This document shows positions 4,213-27,513 of a DNA stretch of 27,513 bases, piece after piece. This DNA comes from a virus. A program made the translations under genes and the position numbers. The notes beneath the pieces were generated by a model. That model was not told the DNA's origin. It worked only from the letters and a program-made list of their open reading frames with translations, and did no database searches. Each line of letters begins with the position of its first letter. Positions within the stretch are counted from its first letter, which is position 1. The stretch lies in the IMG/VR virus record IMGVR_UViG_3300009606_000060, positions 1-27,513 of that record; one strand, given 5' to 3'.

Positions 4213-4656
4213 ATGAGTAATCAAATCCTATCAGATAAAAGTTTAGAACTTACACGAGCTTCAGTTGTTGCTCGTTCACGTGACTTCTCTGATCTTGATC
4301 TCCGATTTAAACCCCATCCGAACCTGGGTGATCTGGTACCATTGCGAGACATAGCTGCTATTAAGAACTCTGTAAGAAATCTTATTCTTACAGGATATGG
4401 CGAAAGACCTTTTCAGCCATCCATTGGTTGTGCTATTACAGATCAGCTATTTGAAAACTTTACCCCAATTACAGTTGCAGCTATGCAGGAATCAATAAGT
4501 CGTACTATTAGCTTTCATGAACCTCGAGTATCACTTGCAGGTATATCAATAAGTGATAAGTCTGACGAAAATGCTGTGTTTGTTTCTGTAAAAGTTTCTA
4601 TAATAAACGTACCTGATCTAGTGGATATAGATATTTACTTAGAGAGAATTCGATAA
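4213..4656 (+). CDS. 25: Baseplate wedge protein gp25
   Basis: This is the gp25 wedge subunit, which in T4 binds gp6 and seeds sheath assembly on the baseplate. Diagnostic features are DLDLRFKPHPNLGDLVPLRD followed by the helix DIAAIKNSVRNLILTGYGERPFQPSIG (residues 46-72), which contains the family's G-x-R-PF-x-P turn. A second helix (ITVAAMQESISRTISFHEPRV) and closing strands around VFVSVKVSIINV follow. At 147 residues it is slightly longer than T4 gp25 (132). Its stop and the next start share a base (TAATG), so it is translationally coupled to gp6, its structural partner. The start at 4213 is the first in-frame ATG after the spike stop. Gene order 25-6 is strongly conserved in contractile tail systems. 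Confidence 0.93.
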   Translation: MSNQILSDKSLELTRASVVARSRDFSDLDLRFKPHPNLGDLVPLRDIAAIKNSVRNLILTGYGERPFQPSIGCAITDQLFENFTPITVAAMQESISRTISFHEPRVSLAGISISDKSDENAVFVSVKVSIINVPDLVDIDIYLERIR

Positions 4657-6500
4657 TGGCGAACATTAAGAACGTAACTGAATTAGACTTTGATCAGATT
4701 AAGGTCAATCTAAAAGCTTATCTGCAAGGACAAGATAAGTTTGCTGACTATGATTTCGATGGATCAGGTATGGCAGTCTTACTTGATATCCTTGCATATA
4801 ATACCCAATATAATGCTTTACTAGCTCACACTAATGCAAATGAGGCGTTCTTAGATACAGCACAGATGCGTGCGAATGTAGTATCTCATGCTAAAAGCCT
4901 AGGATATGTACCAGCTTCTTCAAAGTCATCTGAGGCTAAAATTGATGTTACCGTTATAGGCGCAGCGGGATCCAATACCTTTGCAACTATACCCCGAGGA
5001 ACAGTATTCTCTGGTCTAATTGGATCTAAGCAATTTACCTTTATAACTAACGAATCCTATATTACTTCTAAGAATATTTTAAATCGTTATGTATTTGAAA
5101 ATGTTTCAATCTTTGAGGGTGAGATCGAAACGTTTACCTATCGTGTAAACGGACAAATAGAAAATCAGAAGTTTAAAATACCAACAAACAAAGTTGATAC
5201 CTCTACTCTTGTTGTTGCCGTACGGGATTCAGCTACATCTGAAACGTCTGAGATCTACACCCACTTTAACAACATCCTTGATGTAAAATCTGACTCTCGT
5301 GTGTATTTCTTACAAGAGGGATATGGCGGTGAGTACGAAGTATACTTTGGAGATGGTATTATAGGTAGTAAGCCAACAACAGGTCAGGTAGTAGACATAG
5401 CTTATATTAAGACCAATGGTGCTGAAGCGAACGGTGCATCATCGTTTACTACTGACGCTACTATTGGGGGATTTTCTGGAGCAACAGCTGCTCTTTCGAC
5501 AGGATTTATTAAAACATTTTCTGGAGCAGATAAAGAAGATATAGATTCAATTAAGTTTAATGCACCTAAGGCCTTTCAGAGTCAGAATCGTGCAGTAACA
5601 TCTATTGACTATAACGCTATACTTAAGTTAGAATACGATTTTATTGAAGATATATCTGTATGGGGTGGTGAGGTAAACGATCCACCAACGTATGGTAAAG
5701 TGTTTATATCAATTAAGCCTACAACCGGGGACTATTTATCGACTACTACTAAAAGTATAATAAATCGATTTCTCTCTACTAAAAACGTAGGATCAATTAC
5801 AACTGAAATCGTTAACCCCGACTTCACCTATATTACAATGGAAGTGTTCTTTAAGTATGACGCAGATAATACAGCGAAATCTAAGGCTCAGTTAGAGCTA
5901 GCGGTTAAGGATGCTATAATAAATTATAACGATGTTAATCTAGAGAAATTTGACGGCGTGCTTCGATTCTCCAAGTTATTAAAAGCAATTGATAATGCTG
6001 ATAAAGGCATTTTAAACTCTACAGTTCGTTTAAAGATGCACAAGCACGTTTCTCCTATAACTGGTGAGATACGCGACTATCCTATTAAATTCTCTTCTCC
6101 GATATATAGGACTTCAAGTACAGAACAAACGCTTTCTTCTTCGAAGTTTACTTATGCTGGACAAGAGTGTGAGCTATCTGATATAGCTTCTGATACATAC
6201 CCAAATAGAATCGTGCAGATACGTAATGCTTCAACAAAAACCATTGTAAATTCTGCAGCAGGAACAATCACACCTACTACTGGCATGGTTAATCTAACAC
6301 AGATTCAAATAGATTCAGTAGCGACTCTACTCATTTTTGTAGATCCAGACTCAAATGATATAGCACCTAAGTTTAATCAGCTAGTATCGATTGAAAAAGA
6401 CCAGACTCCTGGCATTGTTATAACAGGCGAAGCAGATAGTATTGCTGCTCTCGGCTCAGTCGGCGCATCCTCATATACAACCTTTAGCAGACACGAATAA
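4656..6500 (+). CDS. 6: Baseplate wedge protein gp6
   Basis: This is gp6, the dimeric wedge protein that forms the inner ring of the baseplate (gpJ of P2 is the simple counterpart). At 614 residues it is close to T4 gp6 (660). The N-terminus is characteristic: FDQIKVNLKAYLQGQDKFAD, then DGSGMAVLLDILAYNTQYNA and the helix ANEAFLDTAQMRANVVSHAK leading into SLGYVPAS. The middle has the J-like FGDGIIGSKPTTGQVV turn at about residues 230-250 and a FNAPKAFQSQNRAVTSIDYN stretch at about 300. The C-terminal 200 residues are beta-rich and more variable. It overlaps gp25 upstream and the gp7-position gene downstream through TAATG junctions, so the three wedge genes form one translational block. Confidence 0.92.
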   Translation: MANIKNVTELDFDQIKVNLKAYLQGQDKFADYDFDGSGMAVLLDILAYNTQYNALLAHTNANEAFLDTAQMRANVVSHAKSLGYVPASSKSSEAKIDVTVIGAAGSNTFATIPRGTVFSGLIGSKQFTFITNESYITSKNILNRYVFENVSIFEGEIETFTYRVNGQIENQKFKIPTNKVDTSTLVVAVRDSATSETSEIYTHFNNILDVKSDSRVYFLQEGYGGEYEVYFGDGIIGSKPTTGQVVDIAYIKTNGAEANGASSFTTDATIGGFSGATAALSTGFIKTFSGADKEDIDSIKFNAPKAFQSQNRAVTSIDYNAILKLEYDFIEDISVWGGEVNDPPTYGKVFISIKPTTGDYLSTTTKSIINRFLSTKNVGSITTEIVNPDFTYITMEVFFKYDADNTAKSKAQLELAVKDAIINYNDVNLEKFDGVLRFSKLLKAIDNADKGILNSTVRLKMHKHVSPITGEIRDYPIKFSSPIYRTSSTEQTLSSSKFTYAGQECELSDIASDTYPNRIVQIRNASTKTIVNSAAGTITPTTGMVNLTQIQIDSVATLLIFVDPDSNDIAPKFNQLVSIEKDQTPGIVITGEADSIAALGSVGASSYTTFSRHE

Positions 6501-9397
6501 TGACTATAAGATCTAATATAGAATCGAGTAAACTCGAATCGTTAATCCCGCGTCAGTTAATAGCTGATGCAGGAGGACTAATTGAGTTTATAAAAGAATA
6601 TTATAGATTTATGCACGAGGAGCAAGGACCTTCCTATGTAATAAACAACATTCTTGCAAATAAAGATGTTGATACAGTTGTAGATACCTTTATATCTTTG
6701 GTAGAAAAAGAAATTGGAGCTGGATTTACTACTAATCTAGCAGCCAATAAGACTAATCTCTATAAAAATATAGTTCAGTTTTATCAGGCAAAAGGTTCTG
6801 AAGAATCATTTAAACTTCTTTTTCGACTTCTATATGATACAGATATTGATATATCGTTTCCTAAAGAAAAAATCCTTGTAGCTTCAGACGGGCGTTGGAT
6901 CCAGCAGAATTCAATCTTTATTGAGGTTACAGAAGGTGATCCATTTGACCTTTTTGCTAACATTACAGATGTAACCACAACTGATAGGGTTGTTAAGGTT
7001 GAAGTAGAAAGAATACGGCGTGTCGAAGAAACTGCTTTTTATGAGATCTTTATAACAAAGGATAATAACACTCGGCGAGTTACTACTGGAGCAACGATAG
7101 ATCAGTATGGTGTTAAGGCTACTGTTGTCGAGTCCTTAAACAAGTATGAGATCTATCATCCAGGTACAGGCTTTGGAATTGCACAGTTTGTCGACGTTAC
7201 ACAATCTCAAGATTTAGAATATAATTCCGGCGATTTAATCGCTATAACCTCTATACCTTCTGCTACCTTTATAGGAAAAAACGTAACGGTTGCTACAGGT
7301 ACTAACGCCTATGGTACAGGAAATAAGTTTTATATTGACGGATTATCAGGTGCAAGCCCTGACCTAGATTTGGTGGAAGAAAGAACCTATAGACTCGATC
7401 AATCAGATTCAAGTAATTCATTCCATCCAATTAAATTTTCAGAGACGGCAAACGGTACCCACGGTACCGGAACAGAGTATACTACGGGTGTAACATATGT
7501 AGGAACACCCGGTACAGCAGGAGCATATACACAAATTGTTCTTACTGCAAATACTCCTGCCCTATATTACTATTGTGCTAATCACTCTGGTATGGGAGGT
7601 ACTGCAAATACAATTGCTGGAGCTACTGAGAACTTCTTTCAGAAAGAACTTACAGTAAACGGCATTCGACTCGTATCAGCTGGCGCTGTTGGCGGTCAGG
7701 ATTCTGTACCAGACGAATGGGTTAAGAAGACAGCAAGAGTTATTGAGCTACTGACAGATCCGACAGGTGCTGGTATTAATGAGGCTGATCAAAGAAACTT
7801 AATTAAAACCCTTTCAGGCGATTCTGGCACACTTACACACCCGGGAGTTCCAACACTACAAAGAATTGCATATGGTGGTGGATCAGAGTATACCCCAGCT
7901 TTCTTAACTGATGCTGGTACTGAATATTGGAACCTAAATGGTTTATATGATACCCATGTCCAAGATGATATGGTATGGTATAAGAATGTTTCAGGACCAG
8001 ATCCCTCAACAAGTGATCGAGACATTGAAGAAATTATGGAGCACGTGTTCCATACTATTCATAACTTTGGTATTCCAGGTGCAGTGGCTGCTTCACAGGC
8101 TGAAGTACCAATGGCTTATCTGACGACACTCCTTCAACAGAGTCCTGCCTTCGATTGGCAAAACACAGCTCTTCACCTTGCTATGAAGGAGGTAATCGAC
8201 GCAGGCTTATTTGATCCCTCCGGCTATGCTGTAGATTGGGACACAGATCCAGAAGCAGCAGTTGTAGCATATAAGGAATATGCGTATCTTCTTAACTGGT
8301 CAATGTGGGACATGAAAGAGTTCTGGGAGAACGAATCTCTAGCCCCAGAGTGGAGCGATACACTCAGAACACCTGCATTTATGCTGGCAAACAACCCTTT
8401 AGGTTATGCCTTATTCAATACCTACTTTGCCCCAGTATTAAGCAAGCCAGACTTTGCTGTATTAAAAAATATTTTTCAAGCAAATGATGCTGGTGAATCA
8501 GGATATAACGCTAACGACATATCAGATGGGGATGGCGTTAAGTTTAAAGTAACTAAGGTAGATGCTGGAACAGGTGCTCTAGAAGAAATTAAATTTATAA
8601 ACTTTGGTGTAGGATACTCTTCGGAGTTCTATGCTATGATCATTCCTCGATCAGAAATAGTTGGCGGGGTTGATCTTATTATATCACAAAACCCTGCAGG
8701 GGATAAGATTACATATCCATCACGAGCAATTATAAAATTCTCTGAGTCAGTTCTTGCAGAGTATCGTGGGGAATATTCTACAAATAATGGTTTTTTATCT
8801 GACGATATATATCTACAAGACAATTTCTTTTATCAGCAGTTCTCTTACCTTATTCGATCATCCCAGCAGTTTGATAACTACAAGGATATTGTTAATAAGA
8901 CAGTTCACCCAGCTGGCATGGCTATGTTTGGTGAGTTCGAGATTAATAACTCTTTTGATATGTCTCGTGCGTTTGAGCTCTTACGTCGTTACTTCACTAA
9001 CCGTGAAGAAGATGTTATCGATACAATTGATCTAAATTTTTGGACACTGTATAAGCCACGTGAAGATGTAGCCTATGCTTCAACTACTGATTGGTTCTAC
9101 GATTTCTATAAGAATGTTTCAGAGATTGTAAACGTTCCAGATCCAGAATATAAAGACTTCTTTAAAGTTCTTGGAGATACAGCACTTAGTACCGATGAAT
9201 TAACATACGCAATTACTAAGATGAAGGAGCTGGTAGAGAATTTAGCTATATCAGAACTTGCTATACTTAGTTACTCAAAAGCTCTTACAGAAGTCATAAA
9301 TAGTAATGATTCAGGCGTTATAGAGATATTAGGTGATATCTACGCCGAAGATTATTTTGCTGAAGATTATTCCGAAGGATTAACTTCATTTACCTAG
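6500..9397 (+). CDS. Baseplate wedge protein in the gp7 position, with inserted cupredoxin-like and unknown domains
   Basis: This 965-residue protein sits between gp6 and gp8, where T4 has gp7 (1032). Sequence similarity to T4 gp7 is not evident to me, so the role rests on synteny. Residues 1-120 are helical (FIKEYYRFMHEEQ, LYKNIVQFYQAKGSEESFKL), and 120-260 are beta-rich. Residues about 262-372 look like a separate domain with H309, C359, H362 and M365, the ligand pattern of a type 1 copper cupredoxin (see findings). Residues about 373-655 form another mixed domain with an EHVFHTIHNFG helix (H515, H518, H521) and a Trp-rich stretch at 598-618. The host protein resumes around 670 and ends in a helical part (750-940) containing FQQFSYLIRSS-like segments and the PAGMAMFGEF turn. 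The TAATG overlap couples it to gp6. Confidence 0.65.
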   Translation: MTIRSNIESSKLESLIPRQLIADAGGLIEFIKEYYRFMHEEQGPSYVINNILANKDVDTVVDTFISLVEKEIGAGFTTNLAANKTNLYKNIVQFYQAKGSEESFKLLFRLLYDTDIDISFPKEKILVASDGRWIQQNSIFIEVTEGDPFDLFANITDVTTTDRVVKVEVERIRRVEETAFYEIFITKDNNTRRVTTGATIDQYGVKATVVESLNKYEIYHPGTGFGIAQFVDVTQSQDLEYNSGDLIAITSIPSATFIGKNVTVATGTNAYGTGNKFYIDGLSGASPDLDLVEERTYRLDQSDSSNSFHPIKFSETANGTHGTGTEYTTGVTYVGTPGTAGAYTQIVLTANTPALYYYCANHSGMGGTANTIAGATENFFQKELTVNGIRLVSAGAVGGQDSVPDEWVKKTARVIELLTDPTGAGINEADQRNLIKTLSGDSGTLTHPGVPTLQRIAYGGGSEYTPAFLTDAGTEYWNLNGLYDTHVQDDMVWYKNVSGPDPSTSDRDIEEIMEHVFHTIHNFGIPGAVAASQAEVPMAYLTTLLQQSPAFDWQNTALHLAMKEVIDAGLFDPSGYAVDWDTDPEAAVVAYKEYAYLLNWSMWDMKEFWENESLAPEWSDTLRTPAFMLANNPLGYALFNTYFAPVLSKPDFAVLKNIFQANDAGESGYNANDISDGDGVKFKVTKVDAGTGALEEIKFINFGVGYSSEFYAMIIPRSEIVGGVDLIISQNPAGDKITYPSRAIIKFSESVLAEYRGEYSTNNGFLSDDIYLQDNFFYQQFSYLIRSSQQFDNYKDIVNKTVHPAGMAMFGEFEINNSFDMSRAFELLRRYFTNREEDVIDTIDLNFWTLYKPREDVAYASTTDWFYDFYKNVSEIVNVPDPEYKDFFKVLGDTALSTDELTYAITKMKELVENLAISELAILSYSKALTEVINSNDSGVIEILGDIYAEDYFAEDYSEGLTSFT
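9295..9302 (+). promoter_or_regulatory. Weak candidate late promoter element (CATAAATA)
   Basis: A CATAAATA sequence lies inside the 3' end of the gp7-position gene, 115 bases before the ATG at 9410. It is one base from the T4 late consensus. Its distance from the next start is larger than for the exact copies in this window, so a chance match is likely. Confidence 0.2.
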
Positions 9398-9883: not shown

Positions 9884-11449
9884 ATGTCTGCTGTAATTAG
9901 ACCTAACTTTCATCATACGATGGCTGAATCGATTTACGATAAGATTCAGAATAGATCGGCGAACTATCATTACTACCTTGGTAAGGTTTTACCATGGCAG
10001 TTTGAAGGAGCTATTGCAGATGCACCTAATCCATCCAATAATATGGATGAAGAGAACGATTCCCGTAATAATATGATCGGGATTAAGCAAATAAACATTA
10101 ATGACGTATCTTTTATTACCCGTCGAATTGATTGGACTTCAAGGGTATTTGATGCCTACGATGATTTAGATACTGTTATGGTAGAAGAAGATTTCTACGT
10201 ATTAACAGAGGATTTTAATGTTTATAAGTGCATAGAAAATAACAAGGGTGCTGTATCCACGGTTAAGCCAACTGGTTTTGATGTTGGTTATACCTCTACA
10301 GCTGATGGATATATTTGGAAGTTTATGTACTTTATGCCGCTTGCATTGCGAAATAAGTTCTTAACACCTAACTATATGCCAGTGATTAAGAAAGTTAAAA
10401 ACCAGTACTACTCAGCTGGAGTTATTGAAAACTACGTTCTAAACGACTCTGGCCAAGACTATGATCCTGATGAGACATATGCAGTTATTCAGGGTGATGG
10501 TGCAGACGGAGCAGCATCTCTTACAATAGAGAATGGCCAGATTACTGCAGTCACAATTGATAATCCTGGTACAGGTTATACTATTGCTTATCTAACTGTA
10601 ACAAAAGGTGCACTCGATCCAGGTACTGGTGCTGATATTGATCTAGTCCTTTCTTCTCCGGGAGATCTAGATTCTCAGCAAGCAGATGTTGAAACCCTTA
10701 CAGTAGATGGCGACATATCACAGATTGTTGTTACAAGATCAGATAATTCTTTTACAAGCGTGCCAGCTGTGACTATTACGGGTGATGGCACAGGAGCAAC
10801 AGCAACAGCAACACTAGATGTAAATGGCGCAGTTTCTCAGATTATTCTAAATAATAGGGGATCAGGATATACCTATGCGGATATATCAATAGCAGCGGAA
10901 TTAGATGGTCTTAGAAGTGCTACAGCTCGTGCGGTTATATCACCCCAATATGGGCATGGATTTAACGCTCCTCGTGAGTTAATCGCTGATACGCTTTGCT
11001 TCCATACTTCTTTCGAAAATGAATTAAATCAAGGTGTGTTAGTAAATAATCAATATAGACAGTTTGGGATTATTAAAGACGTCGAGATCTTTGATGCTAA
11101 GAGGTATTATATTACTGATTCTGGATCAGCATGCTATCTCGTAGAAGGGACATTGGTTGGTGATTCGTTTCCAGAGGATCAGCTTGTAGCTACAGCGGGT
11201 AGTGTTAAGATATTAAGAACTGTAACAAGCGAAGATAATAAATTACTTGCTCAGTCTCTTGATGGAACAATACCGGCAATTGGTGATATCTTTTTTAATG
11301 CTGCAGAGACTGCTTACTTTACAGTTACAGCAGTTACTAATCCTCAAATAAACAAAAAGACTGGCGAAATACTGTTTATTGATAATAGACTAGCATTTAC
11401 ATCTTCTGAGGAACAAACTGTAACATTCAGATCATTCATCAAATTTTAA
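9884..11449 (+). CDS. 8: Baseplate wedge protein gp8 with an inserted beta-repeat region
   Basis: This is gp8, a dimeric wedge protein. The N-terminal 180 residues show it: SIYDKIQNRSANYHYYLGK, the WQFEGAIADAPNP turn, and the EEDFYVLTEDFNVYKCIENN and DGYIWKFMYFMP segments (residues 101-152). The family resumes at about 360 with GHGFNAPRELIADTLCFHTS, then NQYRQFGIIKDVEIFD and a C-terminal ILFIDNRLAFTSSEEQTVTF. Between them, residues 190-350 hold an extra beta-rich region with two related units. Each reads as strand, V/I-x-NGxI/V, Ile/Val-rich strand, then G(T/S)GYT, at 213-240 and 311-336. This explains the length of 521 against 334 in T4. I see only a weak ribosome site before the ATG, inside AATAGAGACTACCTT. 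Confidence 0.85.
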   Translation: MSAVIRPNFHHTMAESIYDKIQNRSANYHYYLGKVLPWQFEGAIADAPNPSNNMDEENDSRNNMIGIKQININDVSFITRRIDWTSRVFDAYDDLDTVMVEEDFYVLTEDFNVYKCIENNKGAVSTVKPTGFDVGYTSTADGYIWKFMYFMPLALRNKFLTPNYMPVIKKVKNQYYSAGVIENYVLNDSGQDYDPDETYAVIQGDGADGAASLTIENGQITAVTIDNPGTGYTIAYLTVTKGALDPGTGADIDLVLSSPGDLDSQQADVETLTVDGDISQIVVTRSDNSFTSVPAVTITGDGTGATATATLDVNGAVSQIILNNRGSGYTYADISIAAELDGLRSATARAVISPQYGHGFNAPRELIADTLCFHTSFENELNQGVLVNNQYRQFGIIKDVEIFDAKRYYITDSGSACYLVEGTLVGDSFPEDQLVATAGSVKILRTVTSEDNKLLAQSLDGTIPAIGDIFFNAAETAYFTVTAVTNPQINKKTGEILFIDNRLAFTSSEEQTVTFRSFIKF

Positions 11450-24900: not shown

Positions 24901-25157
24901 TGGCTGGAATCGAAGGCGCAGATGACTATCCCGAAGGGTTAGATCTTGCTAATAAAACCTTTTATGGATTTAAACTAAATCCTGACAATGGCGGACTAGA
25001 TGTTCAGCTTATAGACGATGATACCATGGCGGTTTCACTTCCTAACCTACAGGATAAAATCATCGATAAATACGCATATAAACATTGGGTTTGGTCACAA
25101 AATTCCCTTCAGTTCCAGTGGAGCGATAACGGACATTTACAGGTTAAAATAGTATGA
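24900..25157 (+). CDS. Small hypothetical protein between fibre genes
   Basis: This 85-residue acidic protein has visible segments ANKTFYGFKLNPDNGGLDVQL, then a charged middle and YKHWVWSQNSLQFQWSDNGHLQVKI at the C-terminus, rich in Trp and aromatic residues. It overlaps the previous gene through TAATG and the following large fibre through ATGA, so it is locked into one translational chain with both. This suggests a part in assembling or attaching that fibre. I recognise no family. Confidence 0.6.
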   Translation: MAGIEGADDYPEGLDLANKTFYGFKLNPDNGGLDVQLIDDDTMAVSLPNLQDKIIDKYAYKHWVWSQNSLQFQWSDNGHLQVKIV

Positions 25158-27513
25158 CACAGTTAATAGATTTAGGTAAATTAAGATTTCACTTTGCGGG
25201 TGACTGGGCTTCTGGTACTACCTACGAATCCAATGACATTGTAAAATACGGTGGTAATGTATATGTTTATACGTATGCATTAAAATCTGCTGGTGTTTTA
25301 CCTACAGATGACACTCGCTGGGCCTTAATGGTTGAAGGCTTTAGATTCCAGGGTGAATTTGATGTTACTGTTGACTATAAAGTCGGCGATACAGTAGCAC
25401 ATGGTGGTGTTGTTTATGTTGCTATTGCTGATTCTGTAAACACTACACCACCCAATGCTACATACTGGAGCAAATTCCTTGATGGTATTCAATATGAGGG
25501 AATTTATGATCCGGTAGGTGTATACCAAAAGAGCGACGTAGTTAACTACGGTGGTTCAATATACATTGCTACACAAGATACATCTGGTAATTTACCAACA
25601 GATGCTACTTTCTGGAATAAGTTCGTAGAAGGTGTAAGCCCACAAGGCGTATATAACGACGCTACAGCATATGTACCAAACGACTTGGTAGCATACGGCG
25701 CTAACATCTACCGAAATAAAATCGAAAGTACTGGCAACGTTCCTTCTAATGTAACATATTGGGAACTTTACATTGGTGGTATTATCTTTACGGGTACATT
25801 TAATCCCGTTACAGAGTACTTTGTAAATGACTTGGTTATTTACGGTAACACAATTTATCGATCACGCCAAACTCAATCTGCTGTACTTCCTACTGTTACA
25901 GCTAACTGGGAATTGCTAACTGGCGGTGTTAACTACTCCGGTAACTGGGACGTTGCTACACAGTATTACATCGGTGATATTGTTGTATATGGTAATAACT
26001 CTTACCGTGCTACCGTAACTACACTTGGTGCTAATCCAACTGATCTGGTTGATTGGGTATTACAAGCTGGTGCAACATCATATCAAGGCGTATATTCTAA
26101 CGCGACTACTTACTATATTGGCGACTTAGTTAACTATGGTGGTAACGTATATCTTAACATAGCAGAATCAGTTGGCGATGTACCGACAGATACAAGTCAT
26201 TGGTCATCATATTCTGCTGGATTCTCCTATCAAGGAGTGTGGTCAAGCGCTACTCAGTATTACATTGCTCAAGTGGTTAACTACGGTGGATCGCTATACC
26301 AAGCTGATGTTGATAATAGCAATACTAATCCTACAGACACAGCGTCATGGAGTAAGATCGTACCAGGCATTAAATCGCTAGGTCCATGGGCAACGCTAAC
26401 AGAATATGCTACAGACGAAGTGGTTACATATGGCGGTAACACGTTTATCGTTCTATTACCACACGCTGCTGGTTCAGACTTTAATGTTGATCTCGCTGCT
26501 GGTAAATGGCAAAAATTTAACTCTGGCATTCGTTGGAGAGGCATTTGGTCATCAGCTACACAATATCTAAAAGATGATGTAGTAAAGGCTGGTTCATCCT
26601 CCTTTATTGCAGGCGAAGATGTAATCGGTGGTAATTCCCCAGCAAGTGATCCTGTTCCACCAGAATGGCTTGGCTTTGCAACAGGTGCTGAAGGATTCCT
26701 ATCAAAAGATGGCGATACAATGTTGGGTTTCCTTACATTGGATGCAGATCCTACTGACGCTTTACATGCGGCAACTAAAGCATATGTAGATCGCTTTGTT
26801 AATGCTACAGATGGTGGTACAGTTGAAGGCCCATTGATATTCGACAACACTTCCTCGGGTGGTGCTGGACTTACCCTGCAGAATGGTGCTGATCTTACTG
26901 TTGATGGTGGTACTGTTACACTTGAAAACGGTGCTACACTTTCAATTGACTCAGCATCAACCCTTGCAGAAGTTACTGTAGACGGTGATATTAATCTAAA
27001 TGGCGGTAACCTAGACACTACGCAGACCTCTATTAATATAGTTAATGCCAACGCTACAACAGTTAATTTTGCAGGTGCGGGTACAGCAGTGAGTATTGGT
27101 GCTGCAACAGGTACAACAACGGTTAATAATAACCTAGTCGTTACAGGTACTACTACGTTCAACGGTGGTACAATATCACTTGGTGATTCTGATGGGGATA
27201 ACGTTGTATTTGGTGCAGACGTTAACTCGAATGTTATTCCTAACATTGATGATACCTACGACTTAGGTACATCTACACAACAGTGGAAAGACATCTATAT
27301 TGATGGTACTGCCTCAATTGATACAGTCGTCGTTGATGAAACCCTAAGCGTTACGGGTAATAGCTATCTCACCGGTGACACGGTAATAACTGGTACACTC
27401 GACACATCAACGTCTGGTACTATTCCCTCACTTGCAGCTCAAGATCCTACAGGATTCGATAACCAACATGCTCCAACTCGCGGTGTTATTGAATTCTCTG
27501 ATAATGGTACACG
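25154..27513 (+). CDS. Large tail fibre with ten CBM5/12-like repeats (3' partial)
   Basis: This fibre protein starts by ATGA overlap and runs off the right edge after 786 codons. Residues 14-515 are ten tandem units, most exactly 49 residues long. Each has the pattern aromatic-x-G-x-(W/Y/F), Y-x3-D-x-V-x-YGG-x-x-Y, x-P-(T/S) and W near the end, which resembles chitin- and cellulose-binding CBM5/12 modules. Next comes LSKDGDTMLGFLTLDADP with AATKAYVD (517-555), the common fibre linker, then Gly/Thr-rich beta-helix-like strands (TVDGGTVTLENGATLS), and near residues 699-715 IDDTYDLGTSTQQWKDIYI, which often precedes an S74 chaperone. That chaperone would lie outside the window. Role: receptor binding to surface polysaccharide, inferred from the repeat type. 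Confidence 0.8.
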   Translation, partial: MTQLIDLGKLRFHFAGDWASGTTYESNDIVKYGGNVYVYTYALKSAGVLPTDDTRWALMVEGFRFQGEFDVTVDYKVGDTVAHGGVVYVAIADSVNTTPPNATYWSKFLDGIQYEGIYDPVGVYQKSDVVNYGGSIYIATQDTSGNLPTDATFWNKFVEGVSPQGVYNDATAYVPNDLVAYGANIYRNKIESTGNVPSNVTYWELYIGGIIFTGTFNPVTEYFVNDLVIYGNTIYRSRQTQSAVLPTVTANWELLTGGVNYSGNWDVATQYYIGDIVVYGNNSYRATVTTLGANPTDLVDWVLQAGATSYQGVYSNATTYYIGDLVNYGGNVYLNIAESVGDVPTDTSHWSSYSAGFSYQGVWSSATQYYIAQVVNYGGSLYQADVDNSNTNPTDTASWSKIVPGIKSLGPWATLTEYATDEVVTYGGNTFIVLLPHAAGSDFNVDLAAGKWQKFNSGIRWRGIWSSATQYLKDDVVKAGSSSFIAGEDVIGGNSPASDPVPPEWLGFATGAEGFLSKDGDTMLGFLTLDADPTDALHAATKAYVDRFVNATDGGTVEGPLIFDNTSSGGAGLTLQNGADLTVDGGTVTLENGATLSIDSASTLAEVTVDGDINLNGGNLDTTQTSINIVNANATTVNFAGAGTAVSIGAATGTTTVNNNLVVTGTTTFNGGTISLGDSDGDNVVFGADVNSNVIPNIDDTYDLGTSTQQWKDIYIDGTASIDTVVVDETLSVTGNSYLTGDTVITGTLDTSTSGTIPSLAAQDPTGFDNQHAPTRGVIEFSDNGT
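25193..26698 (+). repeat. Ten tandem 49-residue carbohydrate-binding-like units
   Basis: Units 2 to 8 are each 49 residues, unit 1 is 51, and units 9 and 10 are 53 and 55. Conserved points are the Gly-x-(W/Y/F) opening, Y-x3-D-x-V, YGG-x-x-Y and the W about eight residues before the unit end. DNA identity between units is low, so this is an old, diverged array, unlike the recent repeats of the Thr-rich gene. Confidence 0.82.

Follow-up and report, generated by a model that had tools for sequence, protein, structure and literature searches.

In amicyanin, a type 1 copper protein, the ligand loop has the form C-x2-H-x2-M. The joining of a cupredoxin-like domain to another domain has been described for EfeO, which, according to the available part of the source, consists of a cupredoxin-like domain and an M75 domain (PMC9174327), and the accessible part of a further report lists the cyanophages S-RSM4, Syn9 and P-SSM2 as carriers of the plastocyanin gene petE (PMC2984593). 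In the present work, a cupredoxin-fold domain was localized within the gp7-position baseplate wedge protein (965 amino acids, aa) of a 27.5-kb virus record, IMG/VR IMGVR_UViG_3300009606_000060; the whole stretch of 27,513 nucleotides that was analysed is referred to below as the window. We read this domain as a genuine cupredoxin with an intact type-1-like site, which probably acts as a metal-binding, exposed display or adhesion domain, and we regard this reading as a whole as fairly probable.

The four predicted ligands, H309, C359, H362 and M365 (Table 1), were read from the sequence at the places that a sequence-only reading of the same stretch had given for them, with the spacing H-50-C-x2-H-x2-M. 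C359 is the one cysteine of the 965-aa protein, and C-x2-H-x2-M occurs a single time in the 10,026 aa covered by the stop-to-stop frames of at least 100 aa on both strands of the window. From the composition of the 965-aa protein, about 0.0002 occurrences of this motif were expected in it; with the lone Cys and this expectation, a chance motif was ruled out. No second copy of the cupredoxin domain was detected in the window. The sequence-only reading had also described residues 262–372 as a compact, beta-rich unit. A confident all-beta model upheld the compact unit, and its limits turned out to be slightly larger: hidden Markov model (HMM) matches covered residues about 253–375, after correction of a 4-residue offset of the stop-to-stop frame, and the domain as a whole extends over residues about 253–377.

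AlphaFold2 (AF2), given an alignment (A1) of 36 diverse viral copies and the window domain, returned a model with a predicted local distance difference test score (pLDDT) of 93.3 and a predicted template modelling score (pTM) of 0.85, all beta and made up of nine strands. In model numbering, H52 (H309) lies just before the strand 54–57, C102 (C359) ends the strand 98–102, and both H105 (H362) and M108 (M365) are located in the loop ahead of the strand 110–115. When the model was compared with 999 PDB chains using VIA-align, the best 50 rows were all of the cupredoxin fold, a count in which we take the A domains of factor VIII to be cupredoxin-fold. The top row was 2dv6, the N-terminal cupredoxin domain of the three-domain Cu nitrite reductase of Hyphomicrobium (Z 9.4, root-mean-square deviation 2.8, 101 residues aligned), followed by laccases, rusticyanin, the Nitrosopumilus purple cupredoxin (5fc9; Z 7.2, 92/95 residues) and others. 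Foldseek gave 38 rows with cupredoxin domains among its best 50, if nitrous oxide reductase is presumed, as we did, to be cupredoxin-containing. As modelled, the fold of the domain is the cupredoxin Greek-key beta-sandwich; the earlier proposal of a cupredoxin-fold domain inserted into a baseplate protein is supported by the predicted sandwich, as well as by the addition of the domain relative to other T4-like gp7 proteins (see below).

With regard to sequence homology, an alignment of 53 diverse rows (A2) was screened against family models. PF00127 was matched by 7/53 rows (best E 1.2e-4), PF25489 by 5/53 (0.0049) and the NCBIfam plastocyanin model by 6/53 (best E 0.013); the amicyanin model TIGR02657 showed no match to the window copy at E 1 and matched one of the 53 rows at E 0.04. 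The gap to established cupredoxins was bridged by a second type of marine cupredoxin with YYYQC-x2-H-type loops: one copy of this type (locus L149) matches plastocyanin 1b3i at E 4e-4, and two others (L255 and L256) sit in frames that exceed the PF00127 cut-off. An hhalign comparison of A2 with four second-type marine cupredoxins, two of them from frames above the PF00127 cut-off, reached 97.2% (score 64, pairwise E 3.6e-11), the controls giving a highest score of 18.5 in 20 column shuffles and 12.5 for the reversed profile. We consider it nearly certain that the domain is homologous to cupredoxins. The window sequence, when searched by itself against the PDB, gave no match. Profiles built from A1 and A2 placed pseudoazurin at E 0.26 and 1 in PDB sequences, among antibody and other chains, and these hits were not used as evidence of homology.

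To count ligand retention, genome contigs were scanned with two seeds holding none of the four ligand residues. H-C-H-M was kept in 72 of the 77 unique copies; the other five comprised NSAM, HNNY, HCHQ, a copy with an unalignable loop and N at the first position, and a copy cut off by the contig end (L154). Once copies at least 80% alike had been removed, leaving 56, the most conserved columns outside the seeds were the four ligands and the Gly that follows them. Counts of 63/63 and 81/81 obtained with other seeds were given no weight because those seeds included the ligand loop, which biased them. Over all loci, 159 non-redundant copies were assembled from 319 copies plus the window domain by discarding those shorter than 85 aa, containing X or at least 60% alike by 3-mers. 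The full ligand set was present in 146/159, and Cys and the second His were lost together in 11 of the 13 non-intact copies. In copy 2 of S-CAM4 the Cys was kept and the second His and Met were lost, and in copy 3 of L149 a Met-to-Gln change affected the sole altered ligand. The sequence-only reading had named a lack of conservation of the four residues among homologues as a ground for refutation; by these counts they are conserved and are mostly lost together, and the reading was not refuted. Ligands also persist where the loop length is altered, as in S-SKS1 (Cx4Hx2M) and L041 (Cx2Hx3M).

Several of the ligand-less ("dead") copies are found beside an intact one. In gp7 of S-RIM12, S-RIM2, MbCM1 and S-CAM22 an intact copy 1 is followed by a dead copy 2, the order being reversed in gp7 of P-HM2, and in Syn1, S-H9-2 and S-CAM4 the pair is located in another virion protein; the loops of Syn1, S-H9-2, S-CAM4 and P-HM2 were read by eye, as their rows stopped short of the loop or were misaligned there. 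Pairs of intact and ligand-less copies in one protein were recorded at loci L237, L240, L262, L263, L268, L259, L260 and L267. A 1890-aa frame from a Prochlorococcus bin (L149) contains three copies, namely an intact one of the second type, the Met-to-Gln copy and a dead copy, and gp080 of PSS2 (L265, 4992–5330) is a stand-alone ligand-less copy of 112 aa, annotated as baseplate wedge subunit and encoded in the tail gene region, directly after the tape-measure genes. A tree was built by a quick method from 112 columns, with the ligand columns excluded, using 104/159 rows, the remaining viral rows being sampled at one in four; three rows have long branches. On this tree the 12 dead rows require at least 5 changes, 3 of which are forced by well-supported branches, and none of 500 shuffles clustered them as strongly; therefore, they do not represent 12 independent losses. 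Between the window domain and a near relative (L249), dN (nonsynonymous) was 0.082 and dS (synonymous) 0.505, and by this comparison of sequences the domain is under purifying selection.

Since dead and intact copies in some cases reside in one protein, the fold probably does not need the four-residue site. A metal site would predict that the ligands are lost jointly while the domain stays otherwise recognisable, and a role in folding alone would not; the suggestion in the sequence-only reading that the ligands might be kept only for folding is therefore disfavoured by the degenerate copies. From these patterns the metal site looks to have been selected as a unit. We believe that the domain quite probably binds metal in the particle, and the ligand set makes copper the best guess for the bound metal, itself a rather likely one.

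A number of observations weigh against the reading of the domain as a metal-loaded cupredoxin of virions. The window copy had no Pfam match of any kind, even at E 10, and the PF00127 cut-off was passed by none of 10 relatives tested singly (best 17.4 bits vs 21.2). The hhalign comparison of A2 with four plastocyanin-like sequences alone gave 33% (score 26; shuffles up to 14.4). Matches to CBM_4_9 were seen in 5/53 rows of A2 (best E 0.0088, vs the 1.2e-4 of PF00127) and, among the A1 rows, CBM_4_9 (4/37, 2.9e-4) outdid PF00127 (2/37, 0.01). Just 5 of the 999 PDB chains reached Z 8 in VIA-align; Foldseek of the domain model against the PDB returned nothing at E <=0.001 (best E 8.8e-3), and 12 of its best 50 rows were antibody, semaphorin, titin or peptidase chains. 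Degenerate copies are under-counted, as the ligand columns form part of the HMMs, and the existence of such copies indicates that carriers can do without an intact site. The presence of the carriers in virions is taken from annotation, and a structural or adhesive role is argued from location and modularity alone.

Because the marine-cupredoxin comparison reached 97.2%, the plastocyanin-like set only 33%, and the PF00127 cut-off was failed, the domain is filed on sequence grounds as a cupredoxin, yet outside PF00127 in its curated form. The antibody and titin domains among the Foldseek rows and the weak CBM_4_9 matches in some relatives would suit an immunoglobulin-like (Ig-like) beta-sandwich scaffold that binds no metal and has retained its His, Cys, His and Met for packing or folding; Ig-like decorations are, moreover, common in phage virion proteins. 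Against such a scaffold, the degenerate copies keep the other family positions and lose Cys and the second His jointly, several of them next to an intact copy, and the loop spacing varies with the ligands in place. The sole single-ligand replacement that was seen, Met to Gln in L149, is one that stellacyanins are known to have. On balance we judge the scaffold unlikely.

A tblastn search of 50,697 phage records identified 107 that match the domain at E <=10. By name these are Synechococcus (54), Cyanophage (25), Prochlorococcus (16), Methylophilales (4), Pelagibacter (4) and Marine (2), with 2 being unspecific. Domain-bearing proteins are annotated in many phage records as tail fibre, baseplate or virion structural protein, which confirms what the sequence-only reading had stated, that a similar motif occurs in virion proteins of other marine phages. 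PHROGs 27200, 30742, 693, 677, 708, 32294 and 6005 match the domain at E <=0.001 and are described as tail fibre, connector, baseplate, virion structural or unknown, never as cupredoxin. Similarly, 57 viral models of BFVD match at E <=0.001, and among the best 50 of these, 20 are named and none is called a cupredoxin. Three BFVD entries described as "beta-sandwich protein" from the Pithovirus and Marseillevirus giant viruses (A0A481Z6J5, A0A481YVH3 and A0A481YY19) had E values of 4e-6 to 1e-4.

This distribution bears on the possibility that a host plastocyanin (petE) was captured to serve photosynthetic electron transport during infection, for which the petE genes of S-RSM4, Syn9 and P-SSM2 offer a precedent in the part of the report available (PMC2984593). 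Members of the family are also present in phages of Pelagibacter and Methylophilales, as well as in bins with the title Euryarchaeota, groups that are without oxygenic photosynthesis. In addition, the window domain is fused inside a baseplate protein and aligns weakly to plastocyanin-like sequences alone. Capture of petE was rejected, being contradicted by architecture and distribution, and we consider it hardly credible.

Related copies are not confined to gp7. In S-RIM12, the gp9-like baseplate wedge tail fibre connector has a related cupredoxin with intact ligands as its C-terminus (L240, 1433–1765), and this copy matches 328 phage records, 324 of them across at least 80% of its length. Among the 12 listed of these 328 matches, 10 are annotated as baseplate wedge tail fibre connector and none as cupredoxin, and all four ligands are present in 9/9 connectors read. 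In T4 terms we take the gp9-like connector to be the joint between fibre and baseplate. A domain located in gp7, with a related copy at the end of this connector in cyanomyoviruses and a second conserved module with invariant His and Glu adjoining it in the window, could act as a redox or copper sensor whose metal state alters the joint of baseplate and fibre and helps to trigger adsorption or contraction. Elsewhere, however, the domain is carried by fibres or by virion proteins unrelated to these, and its cellular copies occur in large or lipoprotein-like frames; this variety of viral and cellular carriers suggests a general role and not one specific to a trigger, and we regard the sensor as improbable.

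Copies in genome bins were found on contigs titled marine Euryarchaeota, Pelagibacteraceae, SAR86, Bacteroidetes, Prochlorococcus, Photobacterium and others. In loci titled as marine Euryarchaeota or related archaea (L103, L107, L109, L111, L112, L114 and L116–L120) the domain was observed at the protein C-terminus, and at the Photobacterium isolate loci L138, L142 and L146 it is located in frames of at least about 3,420 aa. In a Porticoccaceae bin (L130, about 4980–6462), the domain is followed by Peptidase_M75 (imelysin), in an EfeO-like arrangement. The domain is hence a member of a large mobile family that occurs in marine tailed phages as well as in bacterial and archaeal genome bins.

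The bins titled Prochlorococcus, Pelagibacteraceae and SAR86 could be taken to favour metal-mediated host docking, in which the loaded domain mimics a surface or periplasmic cupredoxin of the host, or a partner in metal uptake, and thereby aids binding. Such docking would be the copper counterpart of the "Ferrojan horse" idea. Two SAR86 loci (L155 and L129) carry the same pair of cupredoxin and adjoining module; their frames begin with a lipobox-like sequence, continue with a cadherin-like domain and the module, and have the cupredoxin at the C-terminus. On the other side, some of the contigs with the domain may be viral, and docking appears to us a rather unlikely explanation.

The N-terminus of the window's gp7 matches T4-like phages of Stenotrophomonas, Sinorhizobium, Caulobacter and others, mostly over residues about 1–150. 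These three names are absent from the tally of 107 domain-bearing records, and the domain is therefore an addition to gp7. The module that adjoins it (Table 1) is 51–58% identical to 16 of the 18 aligned viral rows, the other two being 50 and 98% identical, and 27–31% identical to two SAR86 loci and one Prochlorococcus locus; in gp7 of S-RIM2, S-RIM12 and S-B43, identity over the module region is 51–52%. Its invariant residues include a Glu located after the EHxxHT motif. No Pfam match, to M75 or to any other family, was obtained for the module. The AF2 model of the module (pLDDT 74, pTM 0.78) placed zincin metallopeptidases among the top VIA-align rows at Z 6.8 and below, which is under the diagnostic level of the tool, and Foldseek gave no match (best E 1.5); a zincin-like fold is a lead only, drawn from the model. 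The module lies 0 to about 60 residues from the cupredoxin in the window, in the gp7 proteins of S-RIM phages, in L006, in the Prochlorococcus locus L144 and in the SAR86 loci L155 and L129. In loci collected with the module as seed, the cupredoxin was present in 9 of 80 module frames and, anywhere in the stretch examined, in 24 of 80 loci. The two are not obligate partners. These loci contain 21 non-redundant cupredoxin copies; the loop ligands are retained, together with an upstream HP, in 20 of them, and all three loop ligands have been lost in the remaining one.

With regard to the carrier, phrog_17744 (baseplate wedge subunit) matched its N-terminal region with an E value of 5.6e-32, phrog_2885 matched residues 745–935, and PF23786 (Baseplate_wedge) scored 26.3 bits, slightly below its cut-off of 27. 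Judged by these gp7-type N- and C-terminal regions and by the gene order gp25-gp6-gp7-gp8, the 965-aa protein is a T4-like gp7 wedge protein. Elsewhere in the window, an open frame of 321 aa (26281–27246, minus strand) runs antisense to a long 3'-open gene (25154–27511) and is probably a shadow frame.

Table 1. Positions in the window of the carrier gene, its domains and predicted ligands, and neighbouring baseplate genes
Feature	Position	Strand	Basis or remark
gp25-like gene	4213-4656		upstream of gp6-like gene
gp6-like gene	4656-6500		PF21379, phrog_219; directly before gp7-position gene
gp7-position baseplate wedge protein, carrier of the domain	6500..9397	+	open reading frame, 965 aa
Conserved gp7 N-terminal region, residues 12-153	6533..6958	+	phrog_17744; tblastn to T4-like gp7s
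Cupredoxin-fold domain, residues 258-377 (stretch used as query and modelled)	7271..7630	+	predicted; AF2, VIA-align, hhalign
H309, predicted N-terminal His ligand	7424..7426	+	in SFHPIKFSE; invariant 37/37 (seeds partly on ligands)
C359, predicted thiolate ligand	7574..7576	+	in YYYCANHSGMGG
H362, predicted second His ligand	7583..7585	+	in YYYCANHSGMGG
M365, predicted axial Met ligand	7592..7594	+	in YYYCANHSGMGG; loop C-x2-H-x2-M
Adjoining module, about residues 376-663 (~290 residues), invariant EHxxHT	7625..8488	+	weakly zincin-like predicted fold
gp8-position gene	9884-11449		phrog_438; after gp7-position gene

In our reading, marine tailed phages insert or append members of this family into baseplate, fibre and other virion proteins. 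The domain would be made in the apo form in the cytoplasm and would be loaded with copper, or with a different soft metal, once released into seawater or when at the surface of a cell; loading after lysis is suggested because phage proteins fold in the cytoplasm. The bound metal would then staple the His strand to the Cys-His-Met loop, and the sandwich, stable in its metal-loaded state and exposed at the surface, would serve for display or adhesion at the periphery of the baseplate. Whether its role is mainly structural or adhesive rather than redox is, in our estimate, evenly balanced. A bolder version, in which marine T4-like virions are copper metalloprotein particles whose gp7 and gp9-like connector sites load after lysis, and in which adsorption or the triggering of the baseplate is controlled by the presence or redox state of the metal, perhaps with a part played by the zincin-like module, seems improbable to us at present.

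If the sites bind copper, many ocean phages would bear metal where the particle makes contact with the cell, their infectivity would be tied to the copper chemistry of seawater, and cupredoxins would have a new setting. The assignment also provides a concrete identity for part of several PHROG families of generic or unknown function and for the end of the gp9-like connector. Use of metal by phage tails for stability, docking or sensing, and the occurrence of copper in virus particles, are now testable questions, for which those proteins that naturally contain both an intact and a "dead" copy offer a ready control.

When compared with known systems, the window domain resembles type 1 copper proteins (amicyanin, plastocyanin, pseudoazurin and rusticyanin) in its predicted fold and in the order of strands round the site; it has the upstream His and the Cys-His-Met of a loop located before the last strand, and this loop has the length of that in amicyanin. 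Unlike these proteins, it is part of a virion protein and not a small soluble electron carrier, and it has a long stretch (about query residues 58–90) between the His and Cys strands. It also differs from the plastocyanin family in lacking a PF00127 match in the window copy, and it has Asn where plastocyanin has Pro before the His. The N-terminal domain of the three-domain Cu nitrite reductase (2dv6) is likewise a cupredoxin fused to larger partners, but it is 16% identical, its partner domains are unrelated and 2dv6 is an enzyme of denitrification. A literature search that covered titles and the beginnings of abstracts, with most subscription papers outside its reach, retrieved no report of a cupredoxin in phage virions and no description of pairs of intact and dead copies. 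Fold and site are thus of a known kind, and it is the virion setting and the intact/dead pairs for which no description was found. As far as the accessible part of the EfeO source allows comparison, EfeO resembles the family in linking an exported domain of cupredoxin-like type to a further, metal-associated one, the copy in L130 being followed by M75, whereas the partner module in the window belongs to no Pfam family and the setting is a virion and not iron uptake (PMC9174327). The cyanophage petE plastocyanin is, like the window domain, a cupredoxin encoded by marine phages (PMC2984593), but it is a stand-alone metabolic gene and not a virion domain. Within the available parts of these two sources, the nearest precedents are petE with respect to setting and EfeO with respect to architecture.

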